Source: Sipunculus nudus
Taxonomy: Eukaryota; Annelida; Sipuncula; Golfingiida; Sipunculidae
Assembly (NCBI GenBank): GCA_026874595.1
Contig: CM049317.1
Location: 44,976,401 to 45,040,400 of the forward strand
Direction of reading: 5' to 3'
DNA: 64,000 nt
Part shown: one piece after another, positions 6,779-43,440 of the stretch
Layout of the letters: each line of letters begins with the position of its first letter
How positions within the stretch are numbered: position 1 is the first letter of the stretch
Notes under the pieces: model-generated
Database searches by the model: none
What the model was told of the DNA's origin: nothing
What the model saw: the letters and a program-made list of their open reading frames with translations, nothing else
Translations under genes and position numbers: made by a program

Positions 6779-8231
6779 ACACTTACTTATTTTGTATGTA
6801 TCCTTGTGGCTGTATGTACACTTACTTGATTTTGTATGTATCCTTGTGGCTACATGTACACTTACTTATTTTGTATGTATCCTTGTGGCTGTATGTACAC
6901 TTACTTGATTTTGTATGTATCCTTGTGGCTACATGTACACTTACTTATTTTGTATGTATCATTGTGGCTGTATGTACACTTACTTGATTTTGTATGTATC
7001 CTTGTGGCTACATGTACACTTACTTATTTTGTATGTATCCTTGTGGCTGTATGTACACTTACTTGATTTTGTATGTATCCTTGTGGCTACATGTACACTT
7101 ACTTATTTTGTATGTATCCTTGTGGCTACAAGTACACTTACTTGATTTTGTACGTATCCTTGTGGCTACATGTACACTTACTTATTTTGTATGTATCCTT
7201 GTGGCTACATGTACACTTACTTATTTTGTATGTATCTTTGTGGCTACATGTACACTTACTTATTTTGTATGTATCCTTGTGGCTGTATGTACACTTACTT
7301 GATTTTGTATGTATCCTTGTGGCTACATGTACACTTACTTATTTTGTATGTATCCTTGTGGCTACATGTACACTTACTTGATTTTGTAAGTATCCTTGTG
7401 GCTACATGTACACTTACTTATTTTGTATGTATCCTTGTGGCTACATGTACACTTACTTATTTTGTATGTATCCTTGTGGCTTCATGTACACTTACTTATT
7501 TTGTATGTATCCTTGTGGCTACATGTACACTTACTTATTTTGTATGTATCCTTGTGGCTGTATGTACACTTACTTGATTTTGTATGTATCCTTGTGGCTA
7601 CATGTAAACTTACTTATTTTGTATGTATCCTTGTGGCTACATGTACACTTACTTGATTTTGTAAGTATCCTTGTGGCCACATGTACACTTACTTATTTTG
7701 TATGTATCCTTGTGACTACATGTACACTTACTTATTTTGTATGTATCCTTGTGGCTTCATGAACTCTTACTTATTTTGTATGTATCCTTGTGGCTACATG
7801 TACACTTACTTGATTTTGTAAGTATCCTTGTGGCTACATGTACACTTACTTATTTTGTCTGTATCCTTGTGGCTGTATGTACACTTACTTGATTTTGTAA
7901 GTATCCTTGTGGCTACATATACACTTACGTATTTTGTATGTATCCTTGTGGCTACATGTACACTTACTTATTTTGTATGTATCCTTGTGGCTGTATGTAC
8001 ACTTACTTGATTTTGTATGTATCCTTGTGGCTACATATACATTTATTTATTTTGTATGTATCCTTGTGGTTGTATGTACACTTACTTATTTTGTATGTAT
8101 CCTTGTGGCTGTATGTACACTCACCTGATTTTGTATGTATCCTTGTGGCTACATATACACTTACTTATTTCATATGTTTCCTTGTGGTTGTATGTACACT
8201 TACTTGATTTTGTATGTATCCTTGTGGCTGC
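6779..8231. repeat. 39/40-bp minisatellite built from the e13 3' end and donor
   Basis: About 37 units. Two forms alternate in places: 40 bp with CTTACTTGATTTTG and 39 bp with CTTACTTATTTTG, giving a 79-bp higher-order period between 6836 and 7073. On the gene's strand each unit reads CCACAAGGATACATACAAAA-T(C)AA-GTAAGTGTACAT, that is, the last 24 coding bases of e13, its GTAAGT donor and the first intron bases. The true exon end (8204-8231) is the rightmost unit. Open frames of the form VSLWLYVHLL in all plus frames come from the repeat and are not genes. Confidence 0.95.
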
Positions 8232-8389
8232 ATGTACTGTTGTGGCATGGAGCCACTAGGGGGTACCATGTACATTTGCTGCCCAGGTGGCTGTCCACCA
8301 GATGGCTCTGGCGTCACACTATCCTGTGAAGGTGGTGCCTTCAGAGAAATCCCAGAGAACTGCTGATTGAGATCACTTGCGCTCGACTC
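8204..8389 (-). CDS. R3HDM1/2-like: e13: Pro/Gln-rich exon ending QGYIQNQ, beside a donor minisatellite
   Basis: Acceptor AAATTATGCAG before 8389, donor AAATCAA|GTAAGT at 8203; 186 bases, phase 0 both sides. It reads ESSASDLNQQFSGISLKAPP, then SQDSVTPEPSGGQPPGQQMY and MVPPSGSMPQQYMQPQGYIQ, ending NQ. The QGYIQ ending resembles a recurrent family motif. The last 24 exon bases (CCACAAGGATACATACAAAA then TCAA) and the donor are the unit of the 39/40-bp array downstream, so about 37 further GTAAGT donors follow. Use of a later donor would add 40 or 79 bases (both 3n+1) and run into stops, so the first donor should be the productive one. Confidence 0.87.
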
Positions 8390-9052
8390 CTGCATAATTT
8401 ACAATATATTTAAGCAACAAACTTATAATTCAGTCCATCTCCCATTATACTAAATAAGCACTACCATACAGCAGTGGTGTACATAGTTGATTTTCTAATG
8501 TTTACCTTAGTGTGTTCTTAACAATAAAATATGCCTGAAAACTGAAAGCAAGTTTGAAGACAGGTTACTGTTTACCTTGGATATAAGACATTACAGAACC
8601 ACAGCTGACTCAGTCTGAGAAGTTTGCCAATTAATACTAATCTGTGGTTACACAACAAACATTATCTTTGTTTGCTCTGTAAGTTTTAAAATTACAACAA
8701 GAGGTAACAAGACACAAGAATGACTGATTAAGTGGGATTTTTCTGTGTCTGTGACATTTCACTCTCTGTCCGAATGATATGATTCTACATGAATTTCAAA
8801 TGCAATTATGTTACCTTTAACCTTGAGCTGAAATTGTAAATGTATCATATGCATCATAACACCAATGCTTTGATTTATATAGTCATTAACATATTAAGTG
8901 ATCCCTGTATGGAAATACACTTATTGTTCATAAATGTGCAAACAGATATCCATCCCAAATCATCAGTTTTGTATTCTGCAAATTTTTAAAATTTTAATGT
9001 AAAAAAAGATGGCCTTGAAAATACTTCCATGACCTTGACCTAAGATACTGAC
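8390..9052 (-). other. Intron 12
   Basis: 660 bases between e12 and e13. No repeat array, element or further exon recognised. Confidence 0.7.
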
Positions 9053-9228
9053 CCCTGAGAGTGACCTTTGGTCTGCTGTCATGCCATAGTGAGTCAGTTG
9101 TTGACCTGCCGACAACGTCTGCGTCATCATGTGACCGGCCATCTGTTGTTGGTGTAACATCTGACCTTCGGGGGGCACTTGAGGTTGGTAACGATATAAA
9201 GACCCATCTGGGTTCTGATATGGTTTAG
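9053..9228 (-). CDS. R3HDM1/2-like: e12: NPDGS box and Gln-rich exon
   Basis: Acceptor ACCTGTTGCAG before 9228, phase 1. It reads KPYQNPDGSLYRYQPQVPPE, then GQMLHQQQMAGHMMTQTLSA and GQQLTHYGMTADQRSLSG. The donor chosen is TCAGGG|GTCAGT at 9052, because it leaves phase 0 as e13 requires. GTCAGT is a weaker donor, though e1 and e3 also use it here. TTAG|GTCAAG, 10 bases on, would break the phase. KPYQNPDGS completes the conserved box begun in e11. No tandem array is seen at this donor. Confidence 0.88.
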
Positions 9229-9591
9229 CTGCAACAGGTCAAACACAAAGTAAGTCTGCTGAAATAACATCCAGGGTCTGATATCAGTCAGGTGTAACAA
9301 GTCAAAATATCAGCAAGCCTTTCAATAATACAGCAAATAATGACATCAATGTTCTGGTTTATCAGGAGGAAAAAACCCGAAAAACTCAAAACAGTGTAAA
9401 CTAGCAATACATTAAATTAACTTGTGGTTATTTTCAGAATCACTTGAAAGCCATTATAGAACTGTTCTTTGACCATATAACATGATCTGCACTACAAGCA
9501 CATTTTTTTTCAAAGAATTTCAGGAAATTCCATCATATTTTTTCAAATCATGTTAAAGATGGTTTGTGTATGAGAACAAAACAGCCATTAA

Positions 9592-11256
9592 CTAGGGACC
9601 CATGGGTCTTGACGCTCAGGTGAATTTGTCTATAAGGATATTATATGTTTATGAGCTTTTTCAAAATATTGGTCCTGTGATCAGTTTGAAGCCAACCTGT
9701 CATTCCAAACTGGAGTTATCATCCAAAAACTAACTTTTGAATGGATGGGCCCTGTGAACTTGACCTTTGACCTAGTGACCCAAATATCAAAAGGAAACTT
9801 CCCTTATTGGCGTCTGCACCACATGTAAATGTGGAAGAAGGAAGGTTTGGGATGAAGTTTGGCTTAAAATGCATCCATAATTTTTGTAAAATTATCCTCA
9901 GATCACATGACCCCAAAATCAAAACAGTTCTTACTTTAGTGGTGAGCAATATAGAAGTCAAGTTTGAAACCAAAATTTGAATCAAATCTGGTGTAATCAA
10001 CAGAAACTAATAGGTGGAATGAAGGACCCTGTGACAAACATCTTTGACTTTGTTACCCTAAAATCCATAAGTTTCTTCCACTATTGGCAAGCAAGCAATA
10101 TCTGGAAGATGGAAGAACTGGGATAAAAAGGTTGGCTTAAAAATAAAATACATCCATTATCTTTTTATAGAATTGAGTCCTGTGGCCTTGACCTTTGACC
10201 CCTAAATCAAAAGGATTCTCACATTATTGGTGGGTCATATAAAAGTCTAGATTGAAACCAATATGTCAATCCAAACTGGAGTTATCATATAGAAACAAAT
10301 ATGTGGACAGATGGCCCCTGTGACCCAGTCCTTTGACTTTGTGGCTCAAAAACCAATCAGGTTATTCCACTATTGGCAGGTCAGCTATATATGCAAGATG
10401 CAAGGTTTTGGATGAAAAGGTTGGCTTAAAATGCATCCACAATCTTTCTAAATAAGTGGGTCCTGTGACCTTGACCTCTGACCAGAAAATCAACAGTTTC
10501 AACAGAGTTCTTGCATTGGAGGTGGGCCATATATAAGTCAAAATTGAAATCCCTATGTTAATCCAAACCAATTTGATGGACATACAGAAAGACAAACAAA
10601 CGGACAGACAGGGTGATTAATATAGGGCGTGCGCTTATTCAAGTGGGGCCCTAATTAACACACAAGGTTCAGGACACAGATGAAACCACAGTTGTGAATC
10701 TGATTGTATCGATATAATTTGGCAGTCTCAAAATGAAGGAAAAATGCATAAAAAATAGAAAAAAACCGGTGGCACCACCAGTCTTCAAAAACTGAAGAAA
10801 TCAATAATTATCAATAAACACACTGGATGAAACCACAGCTGAGAAACTGACAAAACTGCTGTCATTTGATGGTCTCAAAAACAGAAAAAAATTGTAAAAA
10901 TTAAAAAAAAAATACAGATGGTGCCATCAGTTTTCGGGAACTGACAAAACTAGTCATGGTAAAAATTCAAGGCAAGATTCATGCCAATCCATACATTAAT
11001 GTTCAAGATATTGGAGGTTTTGTATCATTTTTTTTTATTCTGGGGGGGGGGGGAGGGGGGGGGGGAGCTTAGCTTGGAGGATATAGGTCTAAGTGACTTA
11101 ATTTCAGGTTTCCATAGAGATTTTTTATGGACCTCCCTAGATTTTTAGTTACTGCAGTTACAATTTGTGCCCTGCTAACGGACGGCCTGACGGACAACAG
11201 ACAAAGTGCCATACTTATACCTCAGTTGGCTTACAGTCAGCTGGGCTAAAAACCCA
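9592..11256 (-). mobile_element. HINE-like element with TGACCTTTGACC motifs
   Basis: The left end CTAGGGACCCATGGGTCTTG then ACGCTCAGGTG matches the HINE left end. The right end, ACAGTCAGCTGGGCTAAAAA at about 11238-11256, follows CTAACGGACGGCCTGACGGA. The body differs from copies 1-4: it consists of diverged units of about 290 bp with CCTGTGACCTTGACCTTTGA-like segments (exact TGACCTTTGACC at 9761 and 10189), TTGGCTTAAAATGCATCCA and TATTGGCAGGT, then a G-run. Same termini with a different body suggests capture or fusion of unrelated sequence between conserved ends. Confidence 0.55.
11042..11065. repeat. G-run in a mobile element
   Basis: Twenty-four bases, all G except one A. Similar homopolymers are a C-run at 14154-14174 and a G-run at 56884-56894. 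Length is unreliable in sequencing. Confidence 0.9.
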
Positions 11257-13781
11257 TTGCTATCTTCCTTAATATGTTTTTTATTATTTTTTTTCTACAT
11301 CAGACTCAAATCCCCTAAATGTACCAGTTTTGAGACATGCTTGACATTTAACCATGGGAGAAGCTAAAAAAGAATGTTTTTCCTTAACATATCCATTTTA
11401 TTGATTGGAATGGGGTGGAGGGGATTTCTTCAGGAACTCTTATTTCAGTAAGAGTGATAAAGACTCCAGTCTGTCTGGAGTGATATGCTTACTATGTACC
11501 AAATAAGACCCACTTAGACCAATTATCAATTTATCAATTACCGGTATACTTATTTTATATTCAACAAGAGGCCAAGGGGTCAGTGCACTTAGCTGAAGTC
11601 TTCCATGGAGGTTATTAATCTTATAAACCATATCAACTGCCTTAGGGGCCATGTGCCCTTTCCTGTGTTCAGGATAATACATGCAACAGAACATTGTACA
11701 TCCCTGCATGGCAACCACTTTTGATTTCTGAGTCTTAAATTTCACAATGCCCTCCCACAGGGACAAATTATGATAAGCATTTAACATCATGTGGCTGGAA
11801 CAGTTATTGAGATTTGTACAAAATAAAATCTAGGTTTGCTATCTGGCAGTCATACAGGATTTCTGACAGGTCTGGTGGGTCACCATTAGTGCCCTGATTA
11901 TGGCTTGTCCATGATCATGGTTGGTCCAAGGGTGACAGCTATAGTTCAGCTGAGTGAAGCTTAAAAATGATTTATTCTCTGCATTTTTTTTTATCATGTT
12001 AGTAATAATGTTAGTAATCTGATGATTCCTGAAACACTTATATAAACTAAAAAGTCACATAGTATGACTTTGCTATATCCAGTCATTCCTTAAATCTATC
12101 ATTACTGCTGAACTAGATCTATATAACACAGTAAACCCAGAATAAGTGCTTAAATATATATAAACAAAATAACAAAAAAACTGGGAAACAGCTTGTAAAG
12201 TACCAGTGATTTAGTAATCTAACAATAAATACAAATCCTTTAAAAATGTATTTATTATGGTAATCTTCAAAAGGCTGAGAAAGCAGGTTCTTTTACAAGT
12301 CTTATAAGGACAGACATGATGGTTATTAAATACAAATTACCTTGTCATCATGAAGTTCAAAGTCAATTAAGCACACAACAATGGTCAGCAGAAAATCAAA
12401 TTAATTTGTATGGTAAATTAATTTCTGGTGAAATACATGATCAGATTGTATGATTACAAAGCCAAGCTAGATCACATATCATAGTTTTCCAGACAGCTGT
12501 TGTTAGTTTTTGATAACAGAACAACTGATAATACATTGTACATATATTTATCTACAAAAATCTTAGGAGAGGTGGCAATTTAAGCATGAATCATAGGTAA
12601 TTTGATGGCAAATTAGCTGACATTTCTGACTAGTCTGTTAACCACTAGATGCAAAGTTAAGGTGATCAATAATTCAAATCACTCTTCTACAAGATTGTTC
12701 AAAATACATTTAGGGATTAAAAATAAGCATTAAACATTTTAATTATTCTTTGTGTACTACTCTTAAATGCTTTAAACCAAAGGTATATGTTATTCCCTAT
12801 CTTGTCAGTGCCCTAAATAATAACAGGAAGGAAGCCAATATTATCATTTTGTTTCAGACAGAAGATTCATCCACATTAATTGACCTGACCTTGATAGTTT
12901 CAGTTAGCTGATAACATCTAGAACATGGCCTATATTCCTGTAGAGGAACTCACAACTTATTATTATTTAAGAAAGCAACAAAATCTTCAAGCTTTTCTAC
13001 GGACAGAAAAGAGCCAGTATATTATCAAAAATTTCACATGGGAAATCAGCATTCAAAAGAAAATTGAACACAGAAAGGAGGTATACATGTACACCAATGT
13101 TTTACTTACATGTGACATGCGGCTCACACTTTGACCTTATTTTACAGTGGTCTTTTCCCACTAAGCTTTAAGAGAAAGCTGAGTTGCGTTACAAACATAT
13201 CATAATAGGGCAAATATGCAAATAACTAAATCTTTAATACACACTTGGAATTTACAAGATGTGAGCCTGTGGACTTATATTTGGGGAAAAACCAGCCAAC
13301 ATCCTTAACATGTATTAAACTTTGTGTTAATTTGTCCCGATAGGTATTAAATATATGTATCTTATAATTAATCCTTATTGGGACAAATTAACACAAAGTA
13401 AGTCTTATCCTTAGTCTACTGCAGGCAATCAATGTGCAGGAAAAAAGCAGCTTATATAGCACATTTAAAACAGAAAAGCTTATCTTAATTATGGCTTGCC
13501 CTAAAGATGTTCAAAGAAACAAAACAACTACCCAAGCAATACTAAGCATTCTTACCACTGGATCGTCAGTGACAACCAGCTTACATGAAACATAACTACA
13601 CGTTCAGCGCCAGGATAATCAGTGAAAGATGGTAAAAGCAAACGGTGACAGTGGAAACGTGAAGGACCGTGACACAAAGAGAGTGCAATGGAAGAAGTGC
13701 AAGCAATCCAGAATTGGATATTATGTGACAACACACAGCGACAACGTGTGACACGAGAACATGCATGAAGCCTAGTGATAC
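11257..13781 (-). other. Intron 11, unique part
   Basis: Mostly AT-rich unique sequence. Only the hairpin at 13319-13399 stands out. Open frames at 11440-11790 (minus) and 12925-13134 (plus) have no recognisable content or matching splice signals. The e11 donor has no tandem copies. Confidence 0.6.
13319..13399. repeat. Perfect 20-bp inverted repeat (hairpin)
   Basis: Arms ACTTTGTGTTAATTTGTCCC (13319-13338) and its exact complement GGGACAAATTAACACAAAGT (13380-13399) around a 41-base AT-rich loop, in intron 11's upstream neighbour region below e11. Probably a tiny palindromic mobile remnant. Confidence 0.85.
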
Positions 13782-13916
13782 CTGTTTGTGGGTTTATGAT
13801 TAAGCTCCCAGGGGGTATGGTGTCGAGACTTGATGCCACCCACACAGCCATGGCACTCCCGTCCCCACTGTTGATGGGTACGAATGGAGGAACTGTGCCT
13901 GGCATCACACAATCCC
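13782..13916 (-). CDS. R3HDM1/2-like: e11: PPGSLIINPQT-box exon
   Basis: Acceptor TTTTTGCCCACAG before 13916, donor ACAAACAG|GTATCA at 13781; 135 bases, phase 1 to phase 1 (skippable without frameshift). It reads GDCVMPGTVPPFVPINSGDG, then SAMAVWVASSLDTIPPGSLI and INPQT. The final PPGSLIINPQT continues in e12 as A-KPYQNPDGSLYRY; the family consensus is a GS-hydrophobic-NPQTG-P-NPDGS box, so this short exon deep inside a long intron is confidently placed. Confidence 0.9.
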
Positions 13917-15731
13917 CTGTGGGCAAAAAGCACAGCCCTGTGTTACCATGGCAACCAGCACCTGTACAGTATCACACCTTAACTTTCATTGGTATATATG
14001 AGAAAAATTTGGCCAGATACATAAAACTTTATAAAATAATACAATTTAGGTTTTCCAGAATCTTTTCACCCTTCCAATGTCTTGATGTAGAGCCTGAACA
14101 CATTATTTTATGTTTTCAGAATGTAGGTGACCTACCATGTGATAATTTTTAAGCCCCCCCCCCCCCCCCCCCCCAGTCATATTATTTGATCTATCACACA
14201 CATACTGGACATGGATGTTCATTATATTATAATAATGAAGGATAACTCCAAACTGTTGCTCAAAACAGTCAGTCAAAATCAAGCTTTATAAATAACAGAG
14301 TTTGCAGACTTATACCATTCAAGCTTACATGCTAGATGCAGGGAACACATAAATGGGTGGCGTGCTCCAGCTGCACCACAGACTGTAGAAAAGTCTATGT
14401 TCACACTGGTTGCATTTTCTCTTCATTACGATTTGACCTAAATGAACCAGCATTAGCACAAGTAAACTCTAAACACATAGATGATCTAATATAAGAATGC
14501 TACATGAGCATTATAATGACAAAACCAGACCTCAATCTGGTCCAGTAACATCACATGTGCAGTTCTGTCTAGTTGGGTTATAAATAAGTGACTGGCAAAC
14601 CAAGAATATGTGCATTTATCAGGACTAAGTTTAGGCTACCCAATATTAATACAGTAAAAACACTTTGTTTAATGCAGATGTACTCTTTGTACATGGATAT
14701 CTAGGCATGGCCCAATTAGGCGAACGTTCGTTTTGTTCGCTCGAAGGTTACCAAAACTGGATTTAGGGTGAACGAAAAATTGTTCGCCTAAACTTTCTGG
14801 ACAAAAGCTATGGAATTTGATGAGATGTATAATTGTTTGTCGCAGAAGAAATATCCTGAATATATTCTTTCAACTATACCGGTCACTTTGTGTTCAATTT
14901 AATCCAAGTGTACCCTCTACATGCAGAATGATGGGGCCTAACCACATATTTACGGTAACCAATTTACTGCTTCACTGGCAGATGTCAGGTGGCCATGCAA
15001 TGATTTGCTTCAACCCCCCAATATTGTATGATATAGAGACTGCCGTACATGGGGTATGTTTGTATGTTGGAATAGCCAAAAGACCCTGGGTTGTTCTCGA
15101 ATGCTGCACTGGCCACTGACATACTTTGTGACAATGACAAATTCCCTCGTTTAATTTCCCACAAAAATTGGCAGTTGCATGAGTTCATATGCATTCCCAC
15201 ACAATTTCTTCAGATATAATTCAGCCTCACCCCTCACTAATAGGGCAAGATCATTTTTAAATACATCCAAAGAAGTAACATCAAACGAGTGATCTTTCAA
15301 CATAGTGGGTGCAATAATCACCAAGGTCTAGGAGTTACTATAACTTATATTAATAAACTTTTTAGACATGATTACGGATTAGAATTGTTTTATAATCTTG
15401 AAATTTAGCAAAAATATCAAACATAATATTTGGATTATCAGTTTTTGAAAATTTTAACAATGACAAGCAGCTTTGACCACACCGACCCCACCAGCCAACA
15501 TAATTATTTTCCAATGATTTCGTTTTATAACATATAATTTCAAATAACAAATCAGAAAAAAAGTTTGTAAATGATTTGTACAACAATTTTATTAAAAATC
15601 ATTAAACCTTTGATATTTTTTAAACACAGAATATGTTGTTAACATCATTTCTTTTAAATTGAGACAACAAAAAGGCAAAACATTTAAATTTGTTGGTCTT
15701 CATATGAACTTTATTTACAATTAAATAAAAA
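13917..15731 (-). other. Intron 10, part next to e11
   Basis: Holds the C-run (14154-14174) and the 76-bp inverted repeat (14716-14791). Nothing coding recognised. Intron 10 continues to 26451. Confidence 0.6.
14716..14791. repeat. 76-bp inverted-repeat element
   Basis: Starts TTAGGCGAACGTTCGTTTTG and ends with the inverted TTCGTT-like arm and GTTCGCCTAA; the outer 10 bases are a perfect inverted pair, the inner bases imperfect. No function seen. Confidence 0.6.
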
Positions 15732-18700
15732 CAAGGGACCCATGGGTCACGGCCCTCAGCTGTTATATATGATAAAAAATATGATTTGGAAAATGAGGCA
15801 CATGCTGGTTTTGTGTGGTAATAAATATAAGCTGTATTATGAGTTGTTGGTGTTTAGCTTATATATGATTTTGATAGTATCTTTGGAGATAGGGAAGAGG
15901 ATTGATTTCATTTATTTTATTAATAAATGGAGTGCTATTGTCACACAGATTTTGACTTGGCCATATAAGCTGCACATATAATAAAAGTTTAACTATTTAT
16001 TAAAATTTAATAACAAATATTGTGCCAAAATATTTTTTATTTAAAAAAATGATAAGAAAATCAAATGATTTTTTAAAAATAAAATATAACTGAAATGATT
16101 ATTAAAATAATATTATAGAATATATTCATGAATGCATTCATGAATACATTTCGAAAGTATCTGCACTGGTATTCAAATACTTTCATTTTTACCTAAATTC
16201 CCATTCTTATGCAAGAAATTTTATAATGCAGTACATATTCATATTCATATTCATATTCAAATACATTTGCAAAGCATTCGCACCATGTCTAGTATTTATT
16301 CAGTTTTGCCAAACAATGATGTTGAGAATCCAGAATATACAAAATTCACAAATTTAAATAATGATCATAAGTACCTGGTTTTATGGCTTTTATTTATATT
16401 AAAAAAAATAAATGTAATATATTCACTTTGGACTACTTTCACATCAATCTACACACTAGACACAGTAGGAATCTAGATTAATATTACCAACTGCATCTTT
16501 GTCTATAATTAATTTCCTTAATTCATATGATCCCTAATGATTAGTAATGAATAATATGATTTATTTTTTTATCATTAAAATTGAACTGAAAAAGACCATA
16601 GGTGACTGCATGGTGTTATTTGGAATAACATTGACATTGACATTCTATCCATCCATACAAGATTCTTACATCATCAGTAACTGTGAGTTAATTTCCTGTT
16701 ACTCATCAACCAACAAATTCCTTTTCTATTAATTTTTCTTTAATTAGTTATTAGAAACCAATAAAAATTTATTAATTTATTGTTAAGTTGTTTTGAAAAA
16801 AACAACTACTAGATGAGTTGGGTTGGACACCTGAATCAACTGTGGCTGGCCATAAGCTGCCTGGCTGCCCGAGTATATGCCTCATCTCAAGCGTGCATAA
16901 TTTGCTGAAAGGTCAACATACAGGTGACTGAAGAGGGGCTGGGTAGAGCCTGGGTCTGACAAGGTCTCATAAAAACATTAATAAAAGCTACAATTTTTGG
17001 CCAATTTCTTTCAGCTTTCTAAACTACAAAGCTGAAATCCTTATGTGTGCATGATATGAAAATTATATCAACAGTGCTCACAGGAAACAAACGTGCCATG
17101 GTCAAAGCTGGGCAAAATTTAAGGTACTAATTTTATATTTATACTAATAACTTATAAAATTTGAAAAATTCAGAACTAATTTTAGGTATTCAATTGAATC
17201 TTGATTAAATAATGTTACATCCCTGACAAAAAATCTCTAGCTTCAGCGATCTTCTTGTTAAGGGAGTAAATATATTTCTTGATTTTTTAAAAAGTGCATT
17301 ATGTTTGGGCCCATAACTTAAAACAATTACGCAATACTGACATCATTTCTGGCATGTGCATAGCTACTGTATAGAAAAATATGTATATTAAAAATGATCA
17401 AAGTCAGATCAGTGGTTTTGATATTAGGCAGTCTTAAAGTGTAACAATGGGTTTTTAATGGAAAAATGAAGTTTTTCATTAATATCTCCAAGGAATTAAG
17501 TCCTAGTGACCAAATTCTTGGCATGGTAGGGGATTTTGGAGACATCTAACTGTATGCCAAATTTTAAGAACTGAGAGCTGAAGCTGGGGAGCTGAGCTCT
17601 AGCAAACTGCATAACACTAGCTTGATGTAAACAATATGTGACATGGTGCTTGAAAACTTAAATAAAATCTACAGTTTTTGATCAACTGGTTTCAAATTTT
17701 TGGTGTTAACAGTTTAAAATGCTAACAAAAACATGCTATGAAAAAAAACGTGCCATGGTCAAATTAAGGCAAAATTTAAGGTACCAATTTTTTTATTTTT
17801 GCTAATATTTTAAAAAATGTAAAAGATTTTTGATCTAATTTTGGGTATACAATTTAATTTTGATTAATAAAAGTTATATTACTAGAAAAAAGTGCTTAGC
17901 TTTAACAAGTTTTGTGTTAAGTGATCAAATTTCTTTCCTGATTATTTTCAAAATGCATTATGTTTGGGCCCATAACTTTTTTAAACTAGAATACAGGTAG
18001 TCGACAAGCAACTACGTGTATCCGCAAAAATCAGAGTAGGACGGGTGAAGTGAGGCATGGATTGAGTGGCAAGGGGAAATAGAGTTACATGTGTTACATA
18101 TTAGAATGGATCTCAGCCACATAAACATGATTGTAGGTGGCGCCACCTGTTATTTGAACAAGAAACTATCCAAGATGTATACACATGCAAAATTTCAGGT
18201 GGAAAAGTCAAACCACAGCAGAGATATGAGTGATTTTATACCACAGCAGACAAACAGATGGACGCTGTGCAAAAATGGCTGCAGGTGGCGCCACCATTTT
18301 TGTGTATGTTATAAAGCTATCCAAGGGCTACATTTGTGTAATTTTTTTTTCCTGATTGGTCAAACAAGTCCAGAGATATAAGCATTAATGTCTGCAGCGT
18401 GAGCATGAATGGAGCTGGCGCCACCTGTCATAAAATCAAGAAAGCTATCCAGGATGTATACACATGCCGAATTACAGGTAATTTGGTCAAACGACTGTAG
18501 AGATTTGAGTGATTTTAACCCAAGGCAGACAAACAAATGGACGCTGTGCAAAAATGGCTGCAGGTGGTGCCACCATTTTTGTGTATGTTATAAAGCTATC
18601 CAAGGGCTACATTTGTGTAAATTTTTTTTCCTGATTGGTCGAATGAGTCCGGAGATATAAGCATGGATGTCTACAGCATGTACCTTAATGTAGGTGGCGC

Positions 18701-21734: not shown

Positions 21735-22070
21735 TTGCTCACACCCCTTTCACATGGCAAATGTTTTAGAGCATTCACTAGGAAATCCAAAGCGTTTTCA
21801 AACTGTTTTGGCCAAAGCTTTTGGATCAAGTTCAGGCGGTGTTTTCAAACCTTTTGAGTATGAATTGTTTTATCCACTTGGCTTTACTGTTGTGTGAATG
21901 GCCCCAAAAGGGTTTGGACCCAGTTTTCAAGCAACTCGGTCACAGCCCATGTGAAATGTGAAATGTATATAACACACAATGGTGCTTGATGCCCGTGTAA
22001 ACTTATCCTATTTGGCCAAACCGCTTTGCCAAAATAGGTTTGAAAATGTTTTGTGTGTGAAAGGAGTATC
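21735..22070. mobile_element. Possible small inverted-repeat element
   Basis: About 335 bp bounded by CACACCCCTTTCACATGG on the left and GTGTGTGAAAGGAGTATC on the right, which are imperfect inverted copies (CCTTTCACA / TGTGAAAGG). Further inner pairing is visible (CAAACTGTTTTGGCC.. / ..TTTGGCCAAACCGC, and CCCATGTGAAATG). No coding capacity. Target duplication not clear, so the ends are uncertain. Confidence 0.4.
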
Positions 22071-24829: not shown

Positions 24830-26462
24830 GATTATCCTTAGCCCTGTGGTTACCTGGTTGAGTTCATCTTTTGTTCTCAGGCCCAGGTGAACCCTGCTTC
24901 AACCTGGTTAGGGTCAGCCCTGTCATTGTTTACCTTGTTATGAGAACCCCATCTTCACTTTATGAGGTGAGCACTGTGTTTTCACTTTAAGATGATTTAC
25001 CTCTGAGCTGATCTCTGGTTAGACCAGGCTTTGCCTGTTAAGAATTTGGTCAGCTGTGGTTTCCTTGGATATACCTTATACTGTCCTCACCTGATAGCAT
25101 CAGCTTTATTTACCTGGTAAGGGTTAGTTCTTTAATTACCTTGATAGGGTGAGCCCATTGTCTGCATGCAGATCAGGGCTCACCCTATCAGGTGTTTATC
25201 CGGTTAGGGCTAGGCCAGTATTTGTCTGGTATGACCTGGGTTAGGTCTGTATTAACCTGGTTAGTTTTAGCCTTGAGTTTATCTAGTAAGACCTGGGTTA
25301 GCTCTGTGTTTACCTAGCTAGCCATGTGTTTATCTAGTAAGACCTGGGTTAGCTCTGTGTTTACCTAGCTAGCCATGTGTTTATCTAGTAAGACCTGGGT
25401 TAGCTCTGTGTTTACCTGGCTAGCCATGTGTTTATCTGGTAAGACCTGGGTTAGCTCTGTGTTTACCTGGCTAGCCATGTGTTTATCTAGTAAGACCTGG
25501 GTTAGCTCTGTGTTTACCTGGCTAGTCGTGTTTATCTAGAAAGACCTGGGTTAGCTCTGTGTTTACCTGGCTAGCCATGTGTTTATCTAGTAAGACCTGG
25601 GTAAGGTCTGTGTTTACCTTGTTAGGGCTAGCCATGTGTTTGTGTAGTTAGACCAGGGCCAGCTCTGTGTTTACCTGGCAAGTCATGTGTGAGACCTGGG
25701 TTAGCTGTATTTACCTTGTTAGGGCTAGCCATGCATTTGTCTTGTAAGACCTTGGTTAGCTCTGTGTTTACCTGGTTAGGGCCAGCCCTGTGTTTGTGTA
25801 ATAAGACCTGGGTTAGCTGTGTTTACCTGGCTAGCCATGTGTTTACCTAGTAAGACCTAGGTTAGCTGTGTTTACCTTGTTAGGGCTAGCCATGTATTTG
25901 TGTAGTAAGACCTGGGTTAGCTTTGTGTTTACCTGGCTAGCCATGTAGCCATGTGTTTATCTAGTAAGACCTGGGTGAGCTGTGTTTACCTTGTTAGGGC
26001 TAGCCATGAGTTTGTCTTGTAAGACCTTGGTTAGCTCTGTGTTTACCTGGTTAGGGCCAGCCCAGTGTTTGTGTAATAAGACCTTGGTTAGCTGTGTTTA
26101 CCTGGCTAGCCATGTTGCCATGTGATTATTTAGTAAGACCAGGGTGAGCTGTGTTTACCTTGTTAGGGCTAGCCATGAGTTTGTCTTGGTTAGGGCCAGC
26201 CAAGTGTTTGTGTAATAAGACCTGGGTTAGCTGTGTTTACCTGGCTAGCCATGTGTTTATCTAGCAAGACCTGGGTTAGCTGTGTTTACCTTGTTAGGGC
26301 TAGCCCTGTGTTTGTGTAGTTAGACCTTGGTTAGCTCTGTGTTTACCTGGTAAGGACAAGCCCTGTGTTTGTGTAGTAAGACCTTAGTTAAGGGTGTGTT
26401 TTTCCTGATTAGAATTAGCCCTGGTAATGTTACTGTTAGCTCTGTCTTTACCTGGTTGAGGT
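24830..26462. repeat. 51-bp minisatellite containing the e10 donor
   Basis: The best units, at 25.26-25.63 kb, have a 51-bp period (GACCTGGGTTAGCTCTGTGT, TTACCTGGCTAGCCATGTGT, TTATCTAGTAA); longer mixed units run to 26.44 kb and degenerate ones from 24.83 kb. On the gene's strand the unit carries CCAG|GTAAACACAGAGCTAA. The e10 border reads CCAG|GTAAAGACAGAGCTAA, so the real exon end forms the right end of the array. Confidence 0.9.
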
Positions 26463-26592: not shown

Positions 26593-27119
26593 CTACAAAT
26601 GTACAAATTATGATTAGAGAGACTTGTTTCTGTCATATCTTTATTGTACAATTTTAACATGTATGTTACACAGTACAGTTTATATAATCTTTCCATCAAA
26701 ATTCTTCATAAAAATATTTCAGTAAAAATTGGTACATAGAGTTATATAAATTTGTTTCCTTAAATATTTGACATATGCAAGATATCTTATTTAATTTACA
26801 ATTCATATTTTTTTATTAAGATTTTATTTGTTGAATAATTTATCCATTTTATGTGACACACACACCAGGTATAAAAAAATATATTGAACTTTTTGCCAGT
26901 ATCTGCATTGACAGCAGGAAACAGGTTTATTTACTGGCATAAAAAAGGCATATCTGGGTTGATCTATTAGAATATGGACACAAATTTTTATCTCTCCCAG
27001 AATTTCAGACTATTAGGGCTAAGTATAAGTTTAATTCAAATAAATTATTCCTTCAGACCCCAACCTAACCCCACCCTAACACAGGACTCATTATTAGTCA
27101 TCTTCTCCTATGCTTAGTT

Positions 27120-27250
27120 CTGGCATATTACCTCTATCATTCCACACAATTTACCTGTTTTCATGATAGGCATTCACCTGGCATGATCTACCTTTCTATA
27201 CTGGCACATTTCCTCCATGACACCTCACAGTTTACCTGTTTTTGTGATAG
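27120..27250. repeat. Two-copy tandem duplication over the e9 donor
   Basis: The segment CTGGCA(C/T)ATT..CC..CACA(G/A)TTTACCTGTTTT..TGATAGG occurs twice, 81 bp apart. On the gene's strand the copies are CTATCACAAAAACAG|GTAAAC (real, GT at 27235) and CTATCATGAAAACAG|GTAAAT (GT at 27154). A minimal version of the arrays at other donors of this gene. Confidence 0.8.
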
Positions 27251-27488
27251 GTATCCGTTGCTTGACTTCAGATTTGATAGATGGCGAGCCTCCGAAGCTG
27301 CTAGCTTTGGTAAAAGTGTTTTTTGTTCTGGCACTGGTGTCTGTGCTGTAACCACTGGATGAGTCCGTGCTGCTCCATGGGCGCTGGTCTAATGCACAGC
27401 GGCTCATGTCCTCCTTACTGCTGCGGGTACTCGAGTGGCGGGTTCCGATTCGACTTCCCCCATTTAGGTCCAGCAGATCTTGTGTAGA
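27236..27488 (-). CDS. R3HDM1/2-like: e9: Ser-rich linker with RPWSSTDS box
   Basis: Acceptor ATTTCACCAG before 27488, donor AAAACAG|GTAAAC at 27235; 253 bases, phase 0 to phase 1. It begins STQDLLDLNGGSRIGTRHSS and contains RPWSSTDSSSGYSTD and TKASSFGGSPS. RPWSSTDS and TKASSF are conserved blocks in R3HDM-type proteins; the rest is low-complexity and Ser-rich, a likely phosphorylated linker. A second donor copy 81 bases downstream (GT at 27154-27153) lies in phase, but its use would read into a TGA directly after the normal junction. Confidence 0.93.
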
Positions 27489-31562: not shown

Positions 31563-33511
31563 AGAAATCTAAACTGTAAAGTGCCTGTAAGTGCCCCAAA
31601 TTAAGGTGAAGATCACACAAATGTTAATCATTTCCAGGGAGTCATGTGTCACTGCTTTCCACCACGTTTATGCCAAATCCAAAGAGAACTCTGAAAGTTA
31701 TACCACTAATGAATGCATTATGTGAAAAGACCACTGCAACTTGACGTTAAGAGCAAAGCTCACTGAAAAGTTAATCAGTTGGAGGCACTAATACACTGAC
31801 ACTTTCCATCAACTTTTGAACCAAATCTAATGAAAACTTTTATATTGCATTATCAAGCAAATGAGGTCAAGGTCATGATTAAAATGGTAAATATATACAA
31901 TTTGATAATACTGGAGAGTTTGGTGTAATTCTGGTTGTTATTAGTGAAGCAAATGGCACTGCTAAAGTTAAGCTGTTTGACATAATTATATGGCAGTTTT
32001 GGGTCACAGTGACTTAATTTCAAAATAATGTTAAATTTAATACAGGGCAAGAAAAATAGACTTGCATGTCCACACACTCCCAACATAGCATTCAAGTGAA
32101 ATAAAGTCAGTGGTCAAAATGGAAAGTGCTTATAAATTTAGGTCAAATTTAGATCAAGGTCATACAGAAGTTAATGAATTCAAGGGAGCCCTACATCAAG
32201 CTTGAACCAGATCTAATAAAAAAAACTTGGGATGCTATCATGCTAGTGAGAAAACATGGCCCAAAGTCCACAGTGCAATGACCTTGAGAACAAATGTCAA
32301 GGTAACAGCACCAGGAATAATGTTTGAGACCTCTGTAATAAAGGAATATGATATGATGGTCACAGTCAGCAATGTGTCTGAGATGAGAGATACACTGTCC
32401 ATAAGTGCTGACACACCCACAAAAGCAACAAGCCCCATGCTGATTATTACAACATATGTCTTGGAACAATAGAAGCAACTGGTATCTCAAAAGAATGGAA
32501 TTATTACAAATACACAGATTGTATTTGCAACCTATATGACTTAGACATTTGGGCTTAGAAAACTAGAAATAACATTCACAGTCTTCCCAGTTTTGGCATT
32601 TTAATCTGAGTTCAAGTGCTGAAATGATGATCCCTGGCCTTGCTGTGCATCTCGTTAGTGTACTTCATATAATATCTTGCCAAACAAGTCTTAACAAACA
32701 ACAGTAAAAACAGGTAAGAACTGGACTCAGGTGACAACACTCACACAGCCATGCTAACTGGCAGCAAACAATTCACTCAAACAATGACATGTACACAAAA
32801 TGGCATCATTAGCATGAAAAGGAATACAAATAAATTTGAACCACAGTAAGAGTACATAAGGAAATTTAAATGAACAAGGGTGAGACATTGGCCTTGATTT
32901 GTTTTGTGTCACAGTGGGTAAGCAGAATAAAACTCACGAGCTGGTTATATTTATATCAGTACAGACAGACAGACACACACAAGGTGACAGTTTAAAAGCC
33001 AGAGCATTTAAATTGTAGCAGAGGAGCAGAGGCAACAGAACAACTGGGAATAGTATGCTCAATGTAATCTGGCAAAAATGAACAGCACAGACAACCTGGT
33101 GTCAGACCATATCCCAGGTACCTCCTAGTAGAGAAAGCCAAACTGAGGGTTTATCATGCATTCAACTCCAAAGCATTGGTGCCTGAAAAGTCTATAAATT
33201 AAACTCTAAACATCAGTGAGTTCAGGTACATATTTTTGACCATGAGTAAATCCTGGCCAAATTACAGCTTTGGTAAATGGTACAAAGCATGATCCAACAT
33301 CATGGTTCTGACCATGAGACACCAGAAACAAATGATCAGATTCTGTAGAAAGAACACTAAAGCCTAGCATTTTTATTAGGCATTAATCCAAAAACAAAGA
33401 GTCAGAACAAGACAGCTGAAATAAATGGTACTGGCACATACACTAAGAGAAATTAATGACTGTTCATACACACTGGACCCTTTGTATCAAGACAGAATGA
33501 AAGCTATGAAT
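31563..33511 (-). other. Intron 8, between the two minisatellites
   Basis: Unique-looking sequence with GGTCAAGGTCAT-type pieces (31.86, 32.15, 32.29 kb). Short open frames at 32191-32490 on both strands are not convincing. Confidence 0.55.
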
Positions 33512-36085: not shown

Positions 36086-36777
36086 AGACTTCCCAGAATT
36101 TAATAAAAAGAAAATTCCTTGATTTTTCCCTGATGGTGTTCATTATTTCCACTTATTTTCCAGGAAATCCCTGAACTGCAGAATGGCTGGAATGACCAGG
36201 TAACACAAGACCCTAATTACAGGTATAATGTCTGCAGTATGGACTCTGGACAGGCAACTTCAGCACAGGCTGGTCCAACCAGATAATTGTGATGAGAAAG
36301 GTAAATCTTAAGTTAGAGCAACAAGAAATCTATATAATCTTATCTTTTCCAAGCCAGACTAAAAACAATTAAGTGCAGCTCTGACTTCCATCCTGACCCC
36401 ACTGCTTTTATTTATATTGTAATAACATATTTTAATCATAGCAATCATTTGAGATACCAAATTCTGAACAATTACAGATCGACTAACGTTTACAATATTA
36501 TTGAAATAAGGAGATAGATAAGTATTATAAAAATATTTGTCCATGTGCTAGAATTATTTTTAGAAGCAATTAATTTCTGCCAGAGGTCTAAAGGTCTGAC
36601 AGTCTCTTTTTCACATATTTTAATGTCAACAGTAAGCTATAACATTAGGCTTGGTCAGGTCTCATTTCTCAACTGTCTTCTCAACTGCAAAAAAAATGAT
36701 GCTTTCATCTTAAATATGTTGCCACTGTCCAATCAAACTAAAGCTATGTTTCAAAGGATTTCACAATGAGCAGCTTG
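36086..36777 (-). other. Intron 8, between the 32-bp and 79-bp arrays
   Basis: Plain sequence; nothing recognised. Confidence 0.55.
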
Positions 36778-37260
36778 ACCAATGAAGGGTAGATTAGATG
36801 CAAAGAGGGTTATACAAGGGGTCACTCTACAACCAATCCACTCTCACATCTTGTCCATTGAGGGATAGGTTACAACAGCACATAGGGTTATACAAGGGGT
36901 CGCTCTACACCCAATATACTCTCATCTTTTGTCCATTAAGGGAAAGGTTACAGCAGCACAAAGGGTTTTACAAGGGGTCACACTACAACCAATCTGCTCT
37001 CATTTCTTTGTCCATTAAGGGATAGCTTACAGCAGCACAGGGGGTTGTACAAGGGGCCCCTCTACAACCAATCTACTCTGACCTTTCATCCATTAAGGGA
37101 TAGCTTACAGTAGCACAGGGGGTTGTACAAGGGGCCCCTCTACAACCAATCTACTCTGACCTTTCATCCATTAATAAAGGGATAGGTAACACTATGACTG
37201 AGGATTATACCAGGGGTCTCTCTATGGCCAATCTGCTCTCACCTCTTGTCCATTAAATAT
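36778..37260. repeat. About 79-bp tandem array containing the e8 3' end and donor
   Basis: About five and a half units with ACAAGGGGTC(A/G)CTCTAC, ACCAATCTGCTCTCA..TTGTCCATTAAGGGAT, TACAGCAGCACA. The exon border TTTAATGGACAAGAG|GTGAGAGCAG is the rightmost unit. In the other units the same place reads CAATGGACAAGAT|GTGAGAG, ACAAAAG|ATGAGAG, ACAAAGAA|ATGAGAG and GATGAAAG|GTCAGAG, so most copies have lost a usable GT or context. Confidence 0.85.
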
Positions 37261-37350
37261 CCTGGCTCTTGCTTTTTCGTATTCCTCCTCTCGCTCTTCA
37301 AAAGATTTGCTTTTTGGACCTTGTAAATCTGGACGATCAACACTCCTGGC
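37243..37350 (-). CDS. R3HDM1/2-like: e8: SUZ-type RNA-binding segment
   Basis: Acceptor ATGCTTCCAG before 37350, donor CAAGAG|GTGAGA at 37242; 108 bases, phase 0 both sides. It reads ARSVDRPDLQGPKSKSFEER, then EEEYEKARARIFNGQE. KSKSFEEREEEYEKARARIF is the hallmark of the SUZ domain next to R3H in this family, a basic/acidic helix reported to bind RNA. The last exon bases and the donor are repeated in a roughly 79-bp array of about five copies downstream; in most copies the GT has decayed. Confidence 0.95.
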
Positions 37351-40184
37351 CTGGAAGCATGCAACAGGGCAGGTCACAACATGTGTATGGTAACCAATCA
37401 GATCTCAATAAGTCAACCAACATGATCTTAACATATTTGTGTGAACTAATCAGATTTTTAAAGCTGTCAATTGCTTGATATGTTAAAGATATTGCAGCAG
37501 GTTTTGTGACCGACTGTTTTATTGTGTTCAGAATCCTGTCAACAGATGATTACCCTGACATTAGTCTGCCAGTAAATGCCAAATTCCTAAGTGAAAACAC
37601 AGGATAGGCAGGCCACTCCAGGAAGTTCCAGGATATGAAAACCACACATTCCCAGACTGAAACCAACGGCTAACTGGTATACTTAATGACTTTCCATACA
37701 CTTCCATGCATTATTACTTCTGTCCGAAAACATTTCATGTACATCATCTATCAGTCTGAACATTTTTTCCTGAGCTATATGATGTATGTAGCTGGCAGAT
37801 ATGTTATAATGAAATATTTGAAGCAAATAAAGTGAGAATTTAGGTGTACCATACTTCTGATGTTAATGATCACATTTACTGACCACTTTTTGTTAGAATG
37901 TCAGACATGTATGCTGCTCCTTTTTTTCTACAGCAAACCCATGAACAAATTCTGAGAATCTAAACTTCAGATGGCCTTGTATAACTTCTCAGAAATCCCA
38001 ACCTCTTTGACTTTTGCAGTATCTATTGTTATACAAATGAAATATCAGGTGTGGGAGTCACAGCAGGAATTTCCTGCACCGGGCATATCATCCTGGTGGC
38101 AAAGGTCAAGTTCTTACACTTTCACTTCTAACTTTCAGGAGTTCATTTCACATTCACCCTATTCACTTAAATATCCTTATGATATGTCTATCTATTCCCC
38201 AGCATTTGCATACAAACTAAAATAAACAAGGCTCCAGTCACCGAATGTGTACCTCCATAAACACAGAAATATCACATATCAGAAGTCCATAACATTGTCT
38301 GGTGCTGAAAATTCTTGCATAATCCATGAGATATGGCCCAAAGGCTGCTGGTGAAAGAATAAGCTTAGAACTGATTGGGGGAAAAAAAACAAACATGATG
38401 ATGAACTGAAACAACAGGCATGACAAAGTCTCAACACTACACCCCATCCCATCCTTGCCTCTCATCCAATGAGAGAGGTCAAAAAATGCATTTCATTTAA
38501 ACAAAATTCCTAGAATTTCATCAATTGAATTTGTTTGATTCCAGAATAATCATTTTGACCTGTTTCAAGGTTCTGAAACTTCCTAACTGTTCTTGAACAT
38601 GTGTTACTGTCAACTTGGTGAAACGAAAACAGTTCAATTTCCATGTAAATGCCACAGGGTGTGCTGAAAAACAAACATACTTAAGCCCTTTACCCCTGGA
38701 TATATTGTTTGGACATTTTACGAAACAGACTGACTACTTCCTCCTCTGAGCCAATCAAATTCCTTGATTTTCACTGATTTAAGGATTTTTTTCTCAGAAT
38801 AACAAACATTTTGTTGAATGAAAAATGTGATAATATTTTTTCCAGGTTTTCACTGATTTTAATGATAGTTAAGGATCCTGAAATGTCAGGACACAGATAG
38901 TAAGAGAAATTGTAAATGTTAAGACAAAATACTATCTTACAAACTTCAAGCGAAAGGCCTTGTGAAAGAGTCACCAAAAAAAGATGCTAAGTTCACTTAA
39001 ACACACATTACATAAGTCTTGTATCAGTGTTCTCAGCATTTCATAACAACAATTTTCTCAAAAGTTTTCCCTAATTTTCCAAGATGAATCTTTTTATTTT
39101 CTGGATCATTATATCAGCCACTTAAAATATTAAAAAGAAACCAGCGCTAGACATCCTGAGGGTACTCTGTACATGCTACAAAATATAACAGACTGACCAA
39201 TGTATCTTTTGAACTTATCAAATTCAATGACTCTTCCTCAATTCCAGAGGTTTAAAAAAATCAAAGGACTCTTTCCCTGACTAGGATATCTGACTTTCCA
39301 GGTTTTCAATAATTTTCAGGATGGCTTTATAACAATGTGAAATCCAAAGCCAACAGACACCACTTAAGCATACATAATGACATAAAGCTGAGCAAGGATG
39401 AGACAACAATGTGACAATAATATCAAGGTGGCAGTTTTCAACAAATAGGGCCCATGCAGATCTATGGTACACTCCTGAAGCAGTGGTCTTGTACATTTGT
39501 TCCAACTCATTCCACATACCCACTGTTTACATTTGCCATGTGTGCCATATACAACCACCTGGGGCACTGTATCACATCACCATGTCAAAAATTTAGTCCC
39601 CTAGGTGTTCCTACAGCACACATAATGATCAAGCCCTAAACAGAATGAGGTGGTTTTGTTTGAGTGATCTGAAGTTGTATTATTATTCAAAGCAGGTTTT
39701 GTGTTGTAAAGTTGAAACAAATCACACAGTATTTATACGCATGTCAACAGCTGTTTTCTCTCCTCCAGACTGACCTGATCTTGACAACAGGCAACAAGGA
39801 ATCCATGGCGGATATCACCATACTGCCCAAGCAAGTCTGTGACAAACAGCCATGCATCAAAGAAACCTGGCGCGGCATTCTGACAAGCTGGTTGGAACAT
39901 TCTTATTCCTGTGGAAGCTTCCTGGCAGCTCTATATGATCAAGGTAACCATAGCCAAGCAGTGTGGGAGTGGAATGGGTTAGAAGGAATGAAACATGATT
40001 GTTGCCACAGGAGTGCATACCTATGCTTGAAAATGAAAAAAAATGCTGTAAACATGAATATACTGAATCCAAGACAAGGGCATCTGTTTTTAGCTAATTC
40101 TATAATAAAATATTTGAAGCCATTTACATTTTATGTATATATGGAATTACAGCTGAGAACAGTCAAGCAGTCAAGGAAACTCAC
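37351..40184 (-). other. Intron 7
   Basis: About 2.8 kb with no array at the e7 donor and no clear element. Open frames on both strands at 39.28-40.23 kb overlap each other and lack recognisable content. Confidence 0.6.
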
Positions 40185-40284
40185 ATCATCAGAGCTGGGA
40201 AAATGGCGGCGGAGTATCTGCTTCTTTGGCTGATTTTCTGTGCCGCCTTCTCCACCGATGTGTTCAGAGAACTTGAAATCCGGT
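40185..40284 (-). CDS. R3HDM1/2-like: e7: post-R3H exon (start of SUZ region)
   Basis: Acceptor TTTATTTGTGCAG before 40284, donor GATGAT|GTGAGT at 40184; 100 bases, phase 2 to phase 0. With the split Ile it reads I-PDFKFSEHIGGEGGTENQ, then PKKQILRRHFPSSDD. The FSEHI..ILRR pattern matches the family stretch linking R3H to the SUZ segment. An open frame on the opposite strand (39712-40233) overlaps it and is regarded as a shadow. Confidence 0.93.
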
Positions 40285-40564
40285 CTGCACAAATAAATTA
40301 AAAATAAAGAGGTAATGATTGGCAGTAAATACAACAGACAGCAGCAACAAATGAGTGACAGATGATACAAAATAAAAGCACAGTCCCACATTACAGAAAA
40401 TGTTATCATCAGGTGTCAACCACAATGACAACCAGACTTACACATGGTGCTATTAGGTTGCATAGATTTGCTGTTTCACAACAATTAGACATTCAAGGGT
40501 TATTAAAGAATTAACTGCCTTTTTATTAGATGAAACTGAAGGTCTGTTGTATTGTATATCCCTT

Positions 40565-41766
<1,202 letters not shown>

Positions 41767-41911
41767 TCATTATCGTGTATGAAACTGGTGACATCTTGTT
41801 CCAGTTTCAAGAGAAATATGCGGTCCTTGGGGTTTTTGTTGAGAGTCATTCTGATGAAGCCCTCCAGATTTGTGCCTGTTGAGTCTGTGTAGGCATTTTC
41901 TGTGCTTGAAT
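41767..41911 (-). CDS. R3HDM1/2-like: e5: R3H domain, first half
   Basis: Acceptor AATTTTCAG before 41911, donor AATGA|GTGAGT at 41766; 145 bases, phase 1 to phase 2. It encodes SSTENAYTDSTGTNLEGFIR, then MTLNKNPKDRIFLLKLEQDV and TSFIHDNE. The NPKDR..LLKLEQ segment is the conserved opening of the R3H domain in R3HDM/ARPP21 proteins (roughly residues 170-205 of the model). R3H domains bind single-stranded nucleic acid. The split codon with e6 makes Glu. No tandem array is seen at this donor, unlike at several other exons of the gene. Confidence 0.94.
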
Positions 41912-42234
41912 CTGAAAATTATATTTCACATATTTTATACATCAACAAAGTGTGCATAAGCTTAAAAAGACTTAAAAATGCTGCTTATAATCTGAAACAT
42001 GAAATTTTCATAAATTTCAAAAGACCAGGACAATAATCCTGTATAGTCCAACACCCCAGGAGGGGATATAAACACATTTATGTAAAATATTAATAACTCA
42101 CTTATTCATTCACTTTCTAAAAATGACTAAGAAAAAATCTATATTATTTATAAAAATATCTGCCATTTAAAACTGAAAATGACTATAGCACTAATTTGTA
42201 AAGATATTTTGCATCACAGACCAGTGGTCTGCTG

Positions 42235-43440
42235 TGTTTAGACATCCTTGAGTGGCATAGAGTCATTTTACATGGACTGCTGTGTACGATACTCCTTGAG
42301 AGGCTCAGGGTCATTTGAAGTACTGCTGTATATACATACTTCTTGAGGCACAGGGACATTTTAAGTGGACTGCTGTATATAAATACTTCTTGAGGCACAG
42401 GGACATTTTAAGTGGACTGCTGTATATACATACTTCTTGAGGCACAGGGACATTTTAAGTGGACTGCTGTATATAAATACTTCTTGAGGCACAGGGACAT
42501 TTTAAGTGGACTGCTGTATATAAATACTTCTTGAGGCACAGGGACATTTTAAGTGGACTGCTGTATATACATACTTCTTGAGGCACAGGGACATTTTAAG
42601 TGGACTGCTGTATATAAATACTTCTTGAGGCACAGGGACATTTTAAGTTGACTGCTGTATATAAATACTTCTTGAGGCACAGGGACATTTTAAGTGGACT
42701 GCTGTATATACATACTTCTTGAGGCACACGGACATTTTAAGTGGACTGCTGTATATAAATACTTCTTGAGGCACAGGGTCATTTGAAGTAGACTGCTGTA
42801 TATAAATACTTCTTGAGGCACACGGACATTTTAAGTGGACTGCTGTATATAAATACTTCTTGAGGCTCAGGGTCATTTGAAGTAGACTGCTGTATATAAA
42901 TACTTCTTGAGGCACACGGACATTTTAAGTGGACTGCTGTATATAAATACTTCTTGAGGCACAGGGACATTTTAAGTGGACTGCTGTATATAAATACTTC
43001 TTGAGGCACAGGGACATTTTAAGTGGACTGCTGTATATAAATACTTCTTGAGGCACAGGGACATTTTAAGTGGACTGCTGTATATACATACTTCTTGAGG
43101 CACAGGGACATTTTAAGTGGACTGCTGTATATAAATACTTCTTGAGGCATAGGGACATTTTAAGTGGACTGCTGTATATAAATACTTCTTGAGGCACAGG
43201 GACATTTTAAGTGGACTGCTGTATATAAATACTTCTTGAGGCACAGGGACATTTTAAGTGGACTGCTGTATATAAATACTTCTTGAGGCACAGGGACATT
43301 TTAAGTGGACTGCTGTATATACATACTTCTTGAGGCACACGGACATTTTAAGTGGACTGCTGTATATAAATACTTCTTGAGGCACAGGGACATTTTAAGT
43401 GGACTGCTGTATATACATACTTCTTGAGAGGCATGGAGAT
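42235..43440. repeat. 47-bp minisatellite containing the e4 3' end and donor
   Basis: About 26 units, mostly very uniform: CACAGGGACATTTTAAGTGG, ACTGCTGTATATAAATACTT, CTTGAGG. On the gene's strand the unit has TGCCTCAAGAA|GTATTTATATACAGCAG, against the real e4 border TGCCTCTCAAGAA|GTATGTATATACAGC. A minority of units (those with TATATACATACTT, for example near 42.43, 42.57, 42.71, 43.09, 43.32 kb) keep GTATGT. Two variants carry CACAGGGTCATTTGAAG. Minus-strand frames through it are repeat artefacts. Confidence 0.93.

Follow-up and report, generated by a model that had tools for sequence, protein, structure and literature searches.

A predicted R3HDM-like gene with long introns

The window analysed here is the whole 64,000-nucleotide stretch of Sipunculus nudus contig CM049317.1 (GenBank assembly GCA_026874595.1, positions 44,976,401 to 45,040,400 of the forward strand), and most of it is taken up by one minus-strand gene, which we take to be R3HDM-like and in which six of the 13 predicted introns begin with repeats of their own splice donor. 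The gene was modelled from splice signals, coding bias and reading frame, and its splice sites are predicted. The modelling relied on approximate splice-site weights and R3HDM peptide motifs and on an approximate human codon table; the weights and the table were also applied to the comparison exons described below. The resulting model has 14 coding exons (e1 to e14), 950 residues and 57,172 intron bases, with every phase consistent.

839 to 60863, minus strand: R3HDM-like gene, coding from e1 (60863) to the stop in e14 (839); frame-consistent predicted splice model

A profile search of the predicted product returned the Pfam domains R3H (3.7e-12) and SUZ (2.7e-12), and the product also matched PDB entry 1whr (KIAA1002) at 2.7e-45. 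When the genome (1.43 Gb, 153 contigs) was searched with the protein sequence from e5 to part of e10, all five matches fell at the gene's own locus. Judged by this search the gene appears to be single copy, and exchange between paralogues was therefore rejected as a source of the arrays described below.

Six splice donors lie within repeats that continue into the intron

To score each donor, a seed of 40 bases (25 from the exon and 15 from the intron) was aligned against the following 250 bases. In a Markov null of 2000 trials the 99% level was 16, the 99.9% level 18 and the maximum 19. The distribution of scores over the 13 donors is bimodal: the donors of e4, e6, e8, e9, e10 and e13 score between 18 and 40, while the remaining seven score 6–11. 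At these six donors the end of the exon, the GT and the first intron bases are repeated downstream.

42264 to 43428, minus strand: 47-bp array of 24.8 copies across the e4 donor (exon end 43421); Tandem Repeats Finder (TRF), seed score 25
40555 to 40731, minus strand: degenerate repeat at the e6 donor (exon end 40708), spacing 46–48 bp, limits approximate; seed score 20, sequence
36800 to 37256, minus strand: 78–80-bp array of 5.8 copies across the e8 donor (exon end 37243); TRF, seed score 23
27099 to 27265, minus strand: 81-bp repeat, two copies in all, across the e9 donor (exon end 27236), limits approximate; sequence, seed score 22, alignment
25268 to 26456, minus strand: array with an irregular period near 51 bp, at the e10 donor (exon end 26452); TRF, seed score 18
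6778 to 8237, minus strand: 39/40-bp array across the e13 donor (exon end 8204); TRF, seed score 40, alignment
2121 to 2259, minus strand: far piece of the e13 array, split off by a long interspersed nuclear element (LINE); DNA search at 84% identity, sequence
2260 to 6777, plus strand: LINE-type insertion separating the e13 array from its far piece, its outer limits deduced from where the array pieces end; Pfam RVT_1 3.6e-36, PDB matches to LINE-1 ORF2

The same six donors had been named in an earlier, sequence-only reading of this DNA, and both its claim that they carry border repeats and its statement that the repeated unit includes the exon end and the donor, so that tandem duplication lengthens the introns, hold up. 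Its listing of arrays at all six donors holds only in part: the repeats at e4, e8, e10 and e13 are real arrays, but those at e6 and e9 are weak. At e4 we found 25 downstream copies, and GT is present in all 24 in which the donor position could be aligned. GT is likewise present in 22 of 23 downstream copies at e10 and in 35 of 36 at e13, in three of five at e8, and in one of the three copies at e6. Across the six repeats, the identity of intronic copies to the true border ranges from 0.69 to 1.0. The e10 repeat does cross the exon border, as had been claimed, but takes in only about 5 exon bases; the array as drawn by TRF (25268–26384) begins 67 bases past the donor. The clearest case is e13, whose array takes in 34 bases of the exon. 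The 39/40-bp array described earlier is indeed found across this donor, but it is not continuous, as the LINE, with a reverse-transcriptase open reading frame at 5288–6622 on the plus strand, separates it from its far piece. Because the LINE sits between two pieces of the array, the array is probably older than the insertion.

Introners are dispersed intron-creating elements with homologous sequence in many introns. We searched the genome with pieces of the e4, e8 and e13 repeats, using a DNA search that passes over very common words, and obtained matches only at the locus of origin, so that no such homologous sequence in many introns was found for these three. A dispersed repeat family or introner was rejected on this ground, the units being private to the locus in the three of six repeats searched.

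At two of the borders the age of the exon end can be judged. The end of e6 is aligned to 1whr through the e6–e7 junction, and e8 ends at residue 322, with the SUZ profile match reaching residue 321. The ends of these two exons are thus old coding sequence, and copying there would have run from the exon border into the intron. A separate 55-bp array of 18 copies (44744–45735) starts 173 bases past the e3 donor and does not include that donor.

Acceptors of the same gene are also spanned

The sequence-only reading had taken the donor to be the position that the repeats share. This is true of the six repeats described above, but acceptors are spanned as well, at e12 and, as a candidate, upstream of e1.

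9204 to 9320, minus strand: two-copy repeat across the e12 acceptor (first exon base 9228); acceptor seed score 19, or 20 with a longer seed
60886 to 61457, minus strand: array of 52-bp units upstream of e1, the unit holding a candidate acceptor in the 5' untranslated region, CTTGTAG followed across the border by GAGTGAAG (first exon base 60893); TRF

The candidate e1 acceptor scores 25 upstream and 9 downstream. Weak acceptor scores at intron 4 (14) and intron 8 (13), which a longer seed raises to 17 and 15, were not counted.

Repeats at splice borders of other genes

For comparison, we assembled a sample of 160 exons from matches to Myosin_head, Cpn60_TCP1, Kinesin and UCH, each exon taken together with its flanking 500 bases in either direction (186,256 bases in total). 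The exons were chosen by hand from 319 listed matches (75, 63, 126 and 55, respectively) before any inspection for repeats. Exons without a stop inside the match were kept, and matches on contigs of bacterial appearance were left out, as were most that overlapped or lay in long open frames and some others so as to keep within set numbers; the Aldedh family, with 11 matches in long single frames on small contigs, was not used. A first, stricter boundary caller gave 117 donors with three matches and 84 acceptors with two matches at score 16. The caller was loosened after TRF had revealed missed acceptors inside arrays, and then returned 155 donors and 160 acceptors.

At score 16, border-spanning repeats were present at 3 of the 155 predicted donors and at 6 of the 160 predicted acceptors. 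As controls we used intron positions 60–200 bases from the border and 10 bases apart, which are not independent of one another; these were repeat edges in 36 of 2325 cases on the donor side and in 68 of 2400 on the acceptor side. None of the comparisons separates the classes (Fisher 0.73 for donors against intron edges, 0.46 for acceptors against edges and 0.50 for donors against acceptors). At score 18 the counts were 1/155 donors and 6/160 acceptors, with edge controls of 24/2325 and 64/2400. A cut-off of 16 passes about 1% by chance, and the donor rate is thus partly noise, with 95% limits of 0.4–5.6%. In this sample, then, repeats show neither a preference for splice sites nor an avoidance of them. 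The sequence-only reading had proposed a mechanism acting at donors, and this finds no support here: sampled donors resemble both nearby intron positions and acceptors, and arrays overlap donors no more often than other intron positions, as far as 160 exons show.

The repeats at sampled borders are of varied size. Among the donors, locus L150 has an 81-bp unit in 6.7 copies, whereas L023 and L008 have two copies each. Acceptor arrays include L080 (61 bp, 8.2 copies) and L096 (31 bp, 16.9 copies), and also L107 and L134. The six acceptor matches of at least 16 are L043, L080, L088, L096, L107 and L141, of which L088 and L141 were counted by score alone; the L134 array scores 14 and is outside the six. 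Two further arrays were left uncounted, namely one at L139 that ends near the acceptor and one at L061 that starts 7 bases inside the intron without the donor.

Border-spanning repeats resemble amphioxus mirages

The sequence-only reading knew of no described system that would match these arrays, but one exists. In the amphioxus Adh3 and globin genes, so-called mirages are tandem repeats across exon–intron borders, located at either end of the intron and with units of 10–160 bp; splice signals are present in many of the copies though not in all, and undisturbed splicing is suggested (PMC3087553). Length polymorphism, also somatic, is a further property of mirages. The repeats studied here share the anatomy of mirages. 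Their unit spans the border at the six donors of the gene and at nine sampled borders (score 16); they occur at both intron ends, as seen at e12, the candidate e1 acceptor and the sampled acceptors L080, L096, L107 and L134; and their unit lengths, 39 to 81 bp, fall inside the amphioxus range. They differ in belonging to another genome and in occupying six donors of one gene, and they are known from the sequence of one assembly.

Two other systems are comparable to a lesser extent. Human genes in segmental duplications contain internal tandem repeats at exon–intron boundaries that alter gene structure (PMC2812944), and these too are minisatellites across exon–intron borders; the human repeats vary between recent paralogues, whereas the gene studied here appears to be single copy. 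In the potato RdRp gene, a tandem duplication crossing an intron–exon border is described as a case of intron gain (PMC4974935). As in this case, the duplicated segment here includes splice signals, but the repeats here sit in existing introns. In the intron gain by tandem duplication of Rogers, a new intron arises from the duplicated AGGT segment; here the coding sequence at the e6 and e8 borders is old, an observation that concerns the exons rather than the age of the introns. We found no report of border-spanning repeats from a mollusc among the titles of the literature searched, which was mostly without subscription journals, so that this is weak evidence of absence.

We consider it probable that the arrays are minisatellites of the mirage type, that is, neutral tandem duplications that straddled splice sites and were then expanded within the introns. 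A tandem duplication with breakpoints on either side of a splice site would double the exon end, the GT and the start of the intron. We infer that the outermost copy, which adjoins the exon, would keep the role of donor, and that the exon-adjacent copy would do likewise at acceptors. The extra copies would land inside the intron, making the event close to neutral, and unequal exchange or slippage could afterwards multiply the unit there. Any copies that extended into the exon would disrupt the protein and be lost by selection, which may be why the arrays stop at the exon. The retention of GT in the copies at e4, e10 and e13 indicates that decoy donors have not been purged from the large arrays. 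Taken together, the anatomy at both intron ends, the units private to the locus in the three of six repeats searched, the age of the coding sequence at the e6 and e8 borders and the intact decoy GTs at e4, e10 and e13 fit a harmless duplication straddling the splice site.

Crowding of donor repeats in one gene

Several observations weigh against neutral straddling duplication as a full account, and most of them concern how many donor repeats this single gene has. Among 7950 intron positions of the gene, 17.8% reach a score of 18 or more, but the share falls to 2.2% when the position must be the 5' edge of a repeat; six of 13 donors exceed this edge rate with a binomial P of 1.7e-7 (0.017 when measured against plain coverage). 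The four strong arrays alone give a P of 1.4e-4 against the edge rate; none of these values is corrected for the gene having been chosen as striking. The excess over the sampled donors is strong (6/13 against 3/155, Fisher 4.5e-6). Among an assumed 25,000 genes with 13 introns each, 0.002 genes with six hits would be expected at the point rate of the sample, although this becomes 0.89 at its upper 95% limit. Inside the gene, repeats are found at 2 of 14 acceptors as against 6 of 13 donors, a difference that is not significant (Fisher 0.10). In an array-dense kinesin gene of the same genome there was an acceptor match, at L096, and none at the three called donors (L096, L110 and L118). Lastly, the sample behind the background rates consists of conserved genes only, with predicted splice sites. 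The acceptors of the gene, at 2/14 against 6/160 sampled acceptors, gave a Fisher value of 0.13.

Tandem arrays account for 20.5% of the window, compared with 2.5% and 2.7% of the adjacent 10-kb stretches and 2.5–12.5% of nine other stretches (L161, L162 and L165–L171). In two stretches of the kinesin gene the share is 50.7% (L163, G000:C12:42570700-42580699) and 25.8% (L164). L161–L165 were picked for acceptor matches in their genes and are thus not a random selection. As the kinesin gene is denser in arrays and yet has no match at its three called donors, density alone is insufficient to produce the pattern. An explanation wholly by the array density of the region was rejected, both for this reason and because the adjacent stretches are low. 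A locally elevated rate of tandem duplication probably lies behind the density in the R3HDM-like gene; the crowding of six donor repeats into one gene is an unexplained outlier.

Alternative explanations

The crowding would be accommodated if tandem duplication were provoked at donors in certain genes, with introns growing from their 5' splice sites, the R3HDM-like gene being a hotspot and the sampled conserved genes being cold. We regard this as unlikely. A related proposal, which we judge improbable to much the same degree, is mutation targeted to donors at least in some genes, by R-loops, transcription-coupled slippage or pausing related to U1. The imbalance between donors and acceptors within the gene and its excess over the sample are what this proposal would account for. 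Against it stand the sampled genes, where neither donors nor acceptors exceed intron positions, and the occurrence of acceptor arrays of equal anatomy. The six repeats also lack a common sense-strand GC skew (-0.13, -0.01, 0.10, 0.30, -0.21 and 0.01); the R-loops that the sequence-only reading had put forward gain no support from skew, and a mechanism based on R-loops or strand asymmetry was rejected on this ground.

Selection for redundant donors, either to secure splicing or to provide regulated alternative 5' splice sites, would explain why almost every copy at e4, e10 and e13 retains its GT, and in the aligned copies of e4 and e10 the G and T columns are indeed fully conserved. However, nearly every other column is conserved too (mean conservation 0.976 at e4 and 0.968 at e13), and the G column of e13 ranks only 24th of 40. 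Moreover, the donor score is below that of the true site in 18 of 24 e4 copies, the e4 period, 47 bp, is not divisible by three, and past the e13 donor the reading frame soon closes. We therefore find this explanation very unlikely.

The reverse direction, with an array arising first in the intron, the donor of its first unit being recruited and the exon end being derived from the repeat, has e13 in its favour, where exon bases belong to the array and we have no homologue for the exon end. At e6 and e8 the exon ends are conserved protein sequence, and we hold this order of events to be highly improbable as an account of the repeats. Misassembly of the arrays is scarcely credible, since copies differ from the true border, degenerate low-copy cases are present, and like repeats occur in other genes on other contigs.

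Other sequences in the window and the genome

A 12-bp tandem, GAATACATTCAT, occurs at equal length in four places of the window (3054–3086, 16118–16150, 54317–54349 and 57440–57472). These tandems lie near peptides that are repeated in translation, which suggests copies of one dispersed mobile element.

Bacterial GroEL genes were encountered on small contigs of the assembly, with nine matches of equal score (276.5 bits) on eight contigs (C61, C62, C66, C72, C73, C75, C89 and C99) and a further match in two pieces on G000:C74 (L173). The GroEL of C61, from which L172 was taken, shares no more than 69% identity with any of the 80 relatives listed, the best of those being a metagenome-assembled genome of Omnitrophota. 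This distance points to an associated bacterium or a contaminant without a near relative among them.

Implications

In summary, the repeats across splice donors are confirmed, whereas a donor-specific mechanism and novelty of kind are unsupported; the R3HDM-like gene is a dense case of the known mirages with one unexplained feature. The six matches in this one gene form a concrete outlier that needs explanation, and an annotated genome would allow a direct test of whether splice sites attract duplication. The analysis extends a little-known kind of repeat to a further animal genome, with frequencies measured at both ends of the intron, and points to a simple way in which introns may grow longer without doing harm.

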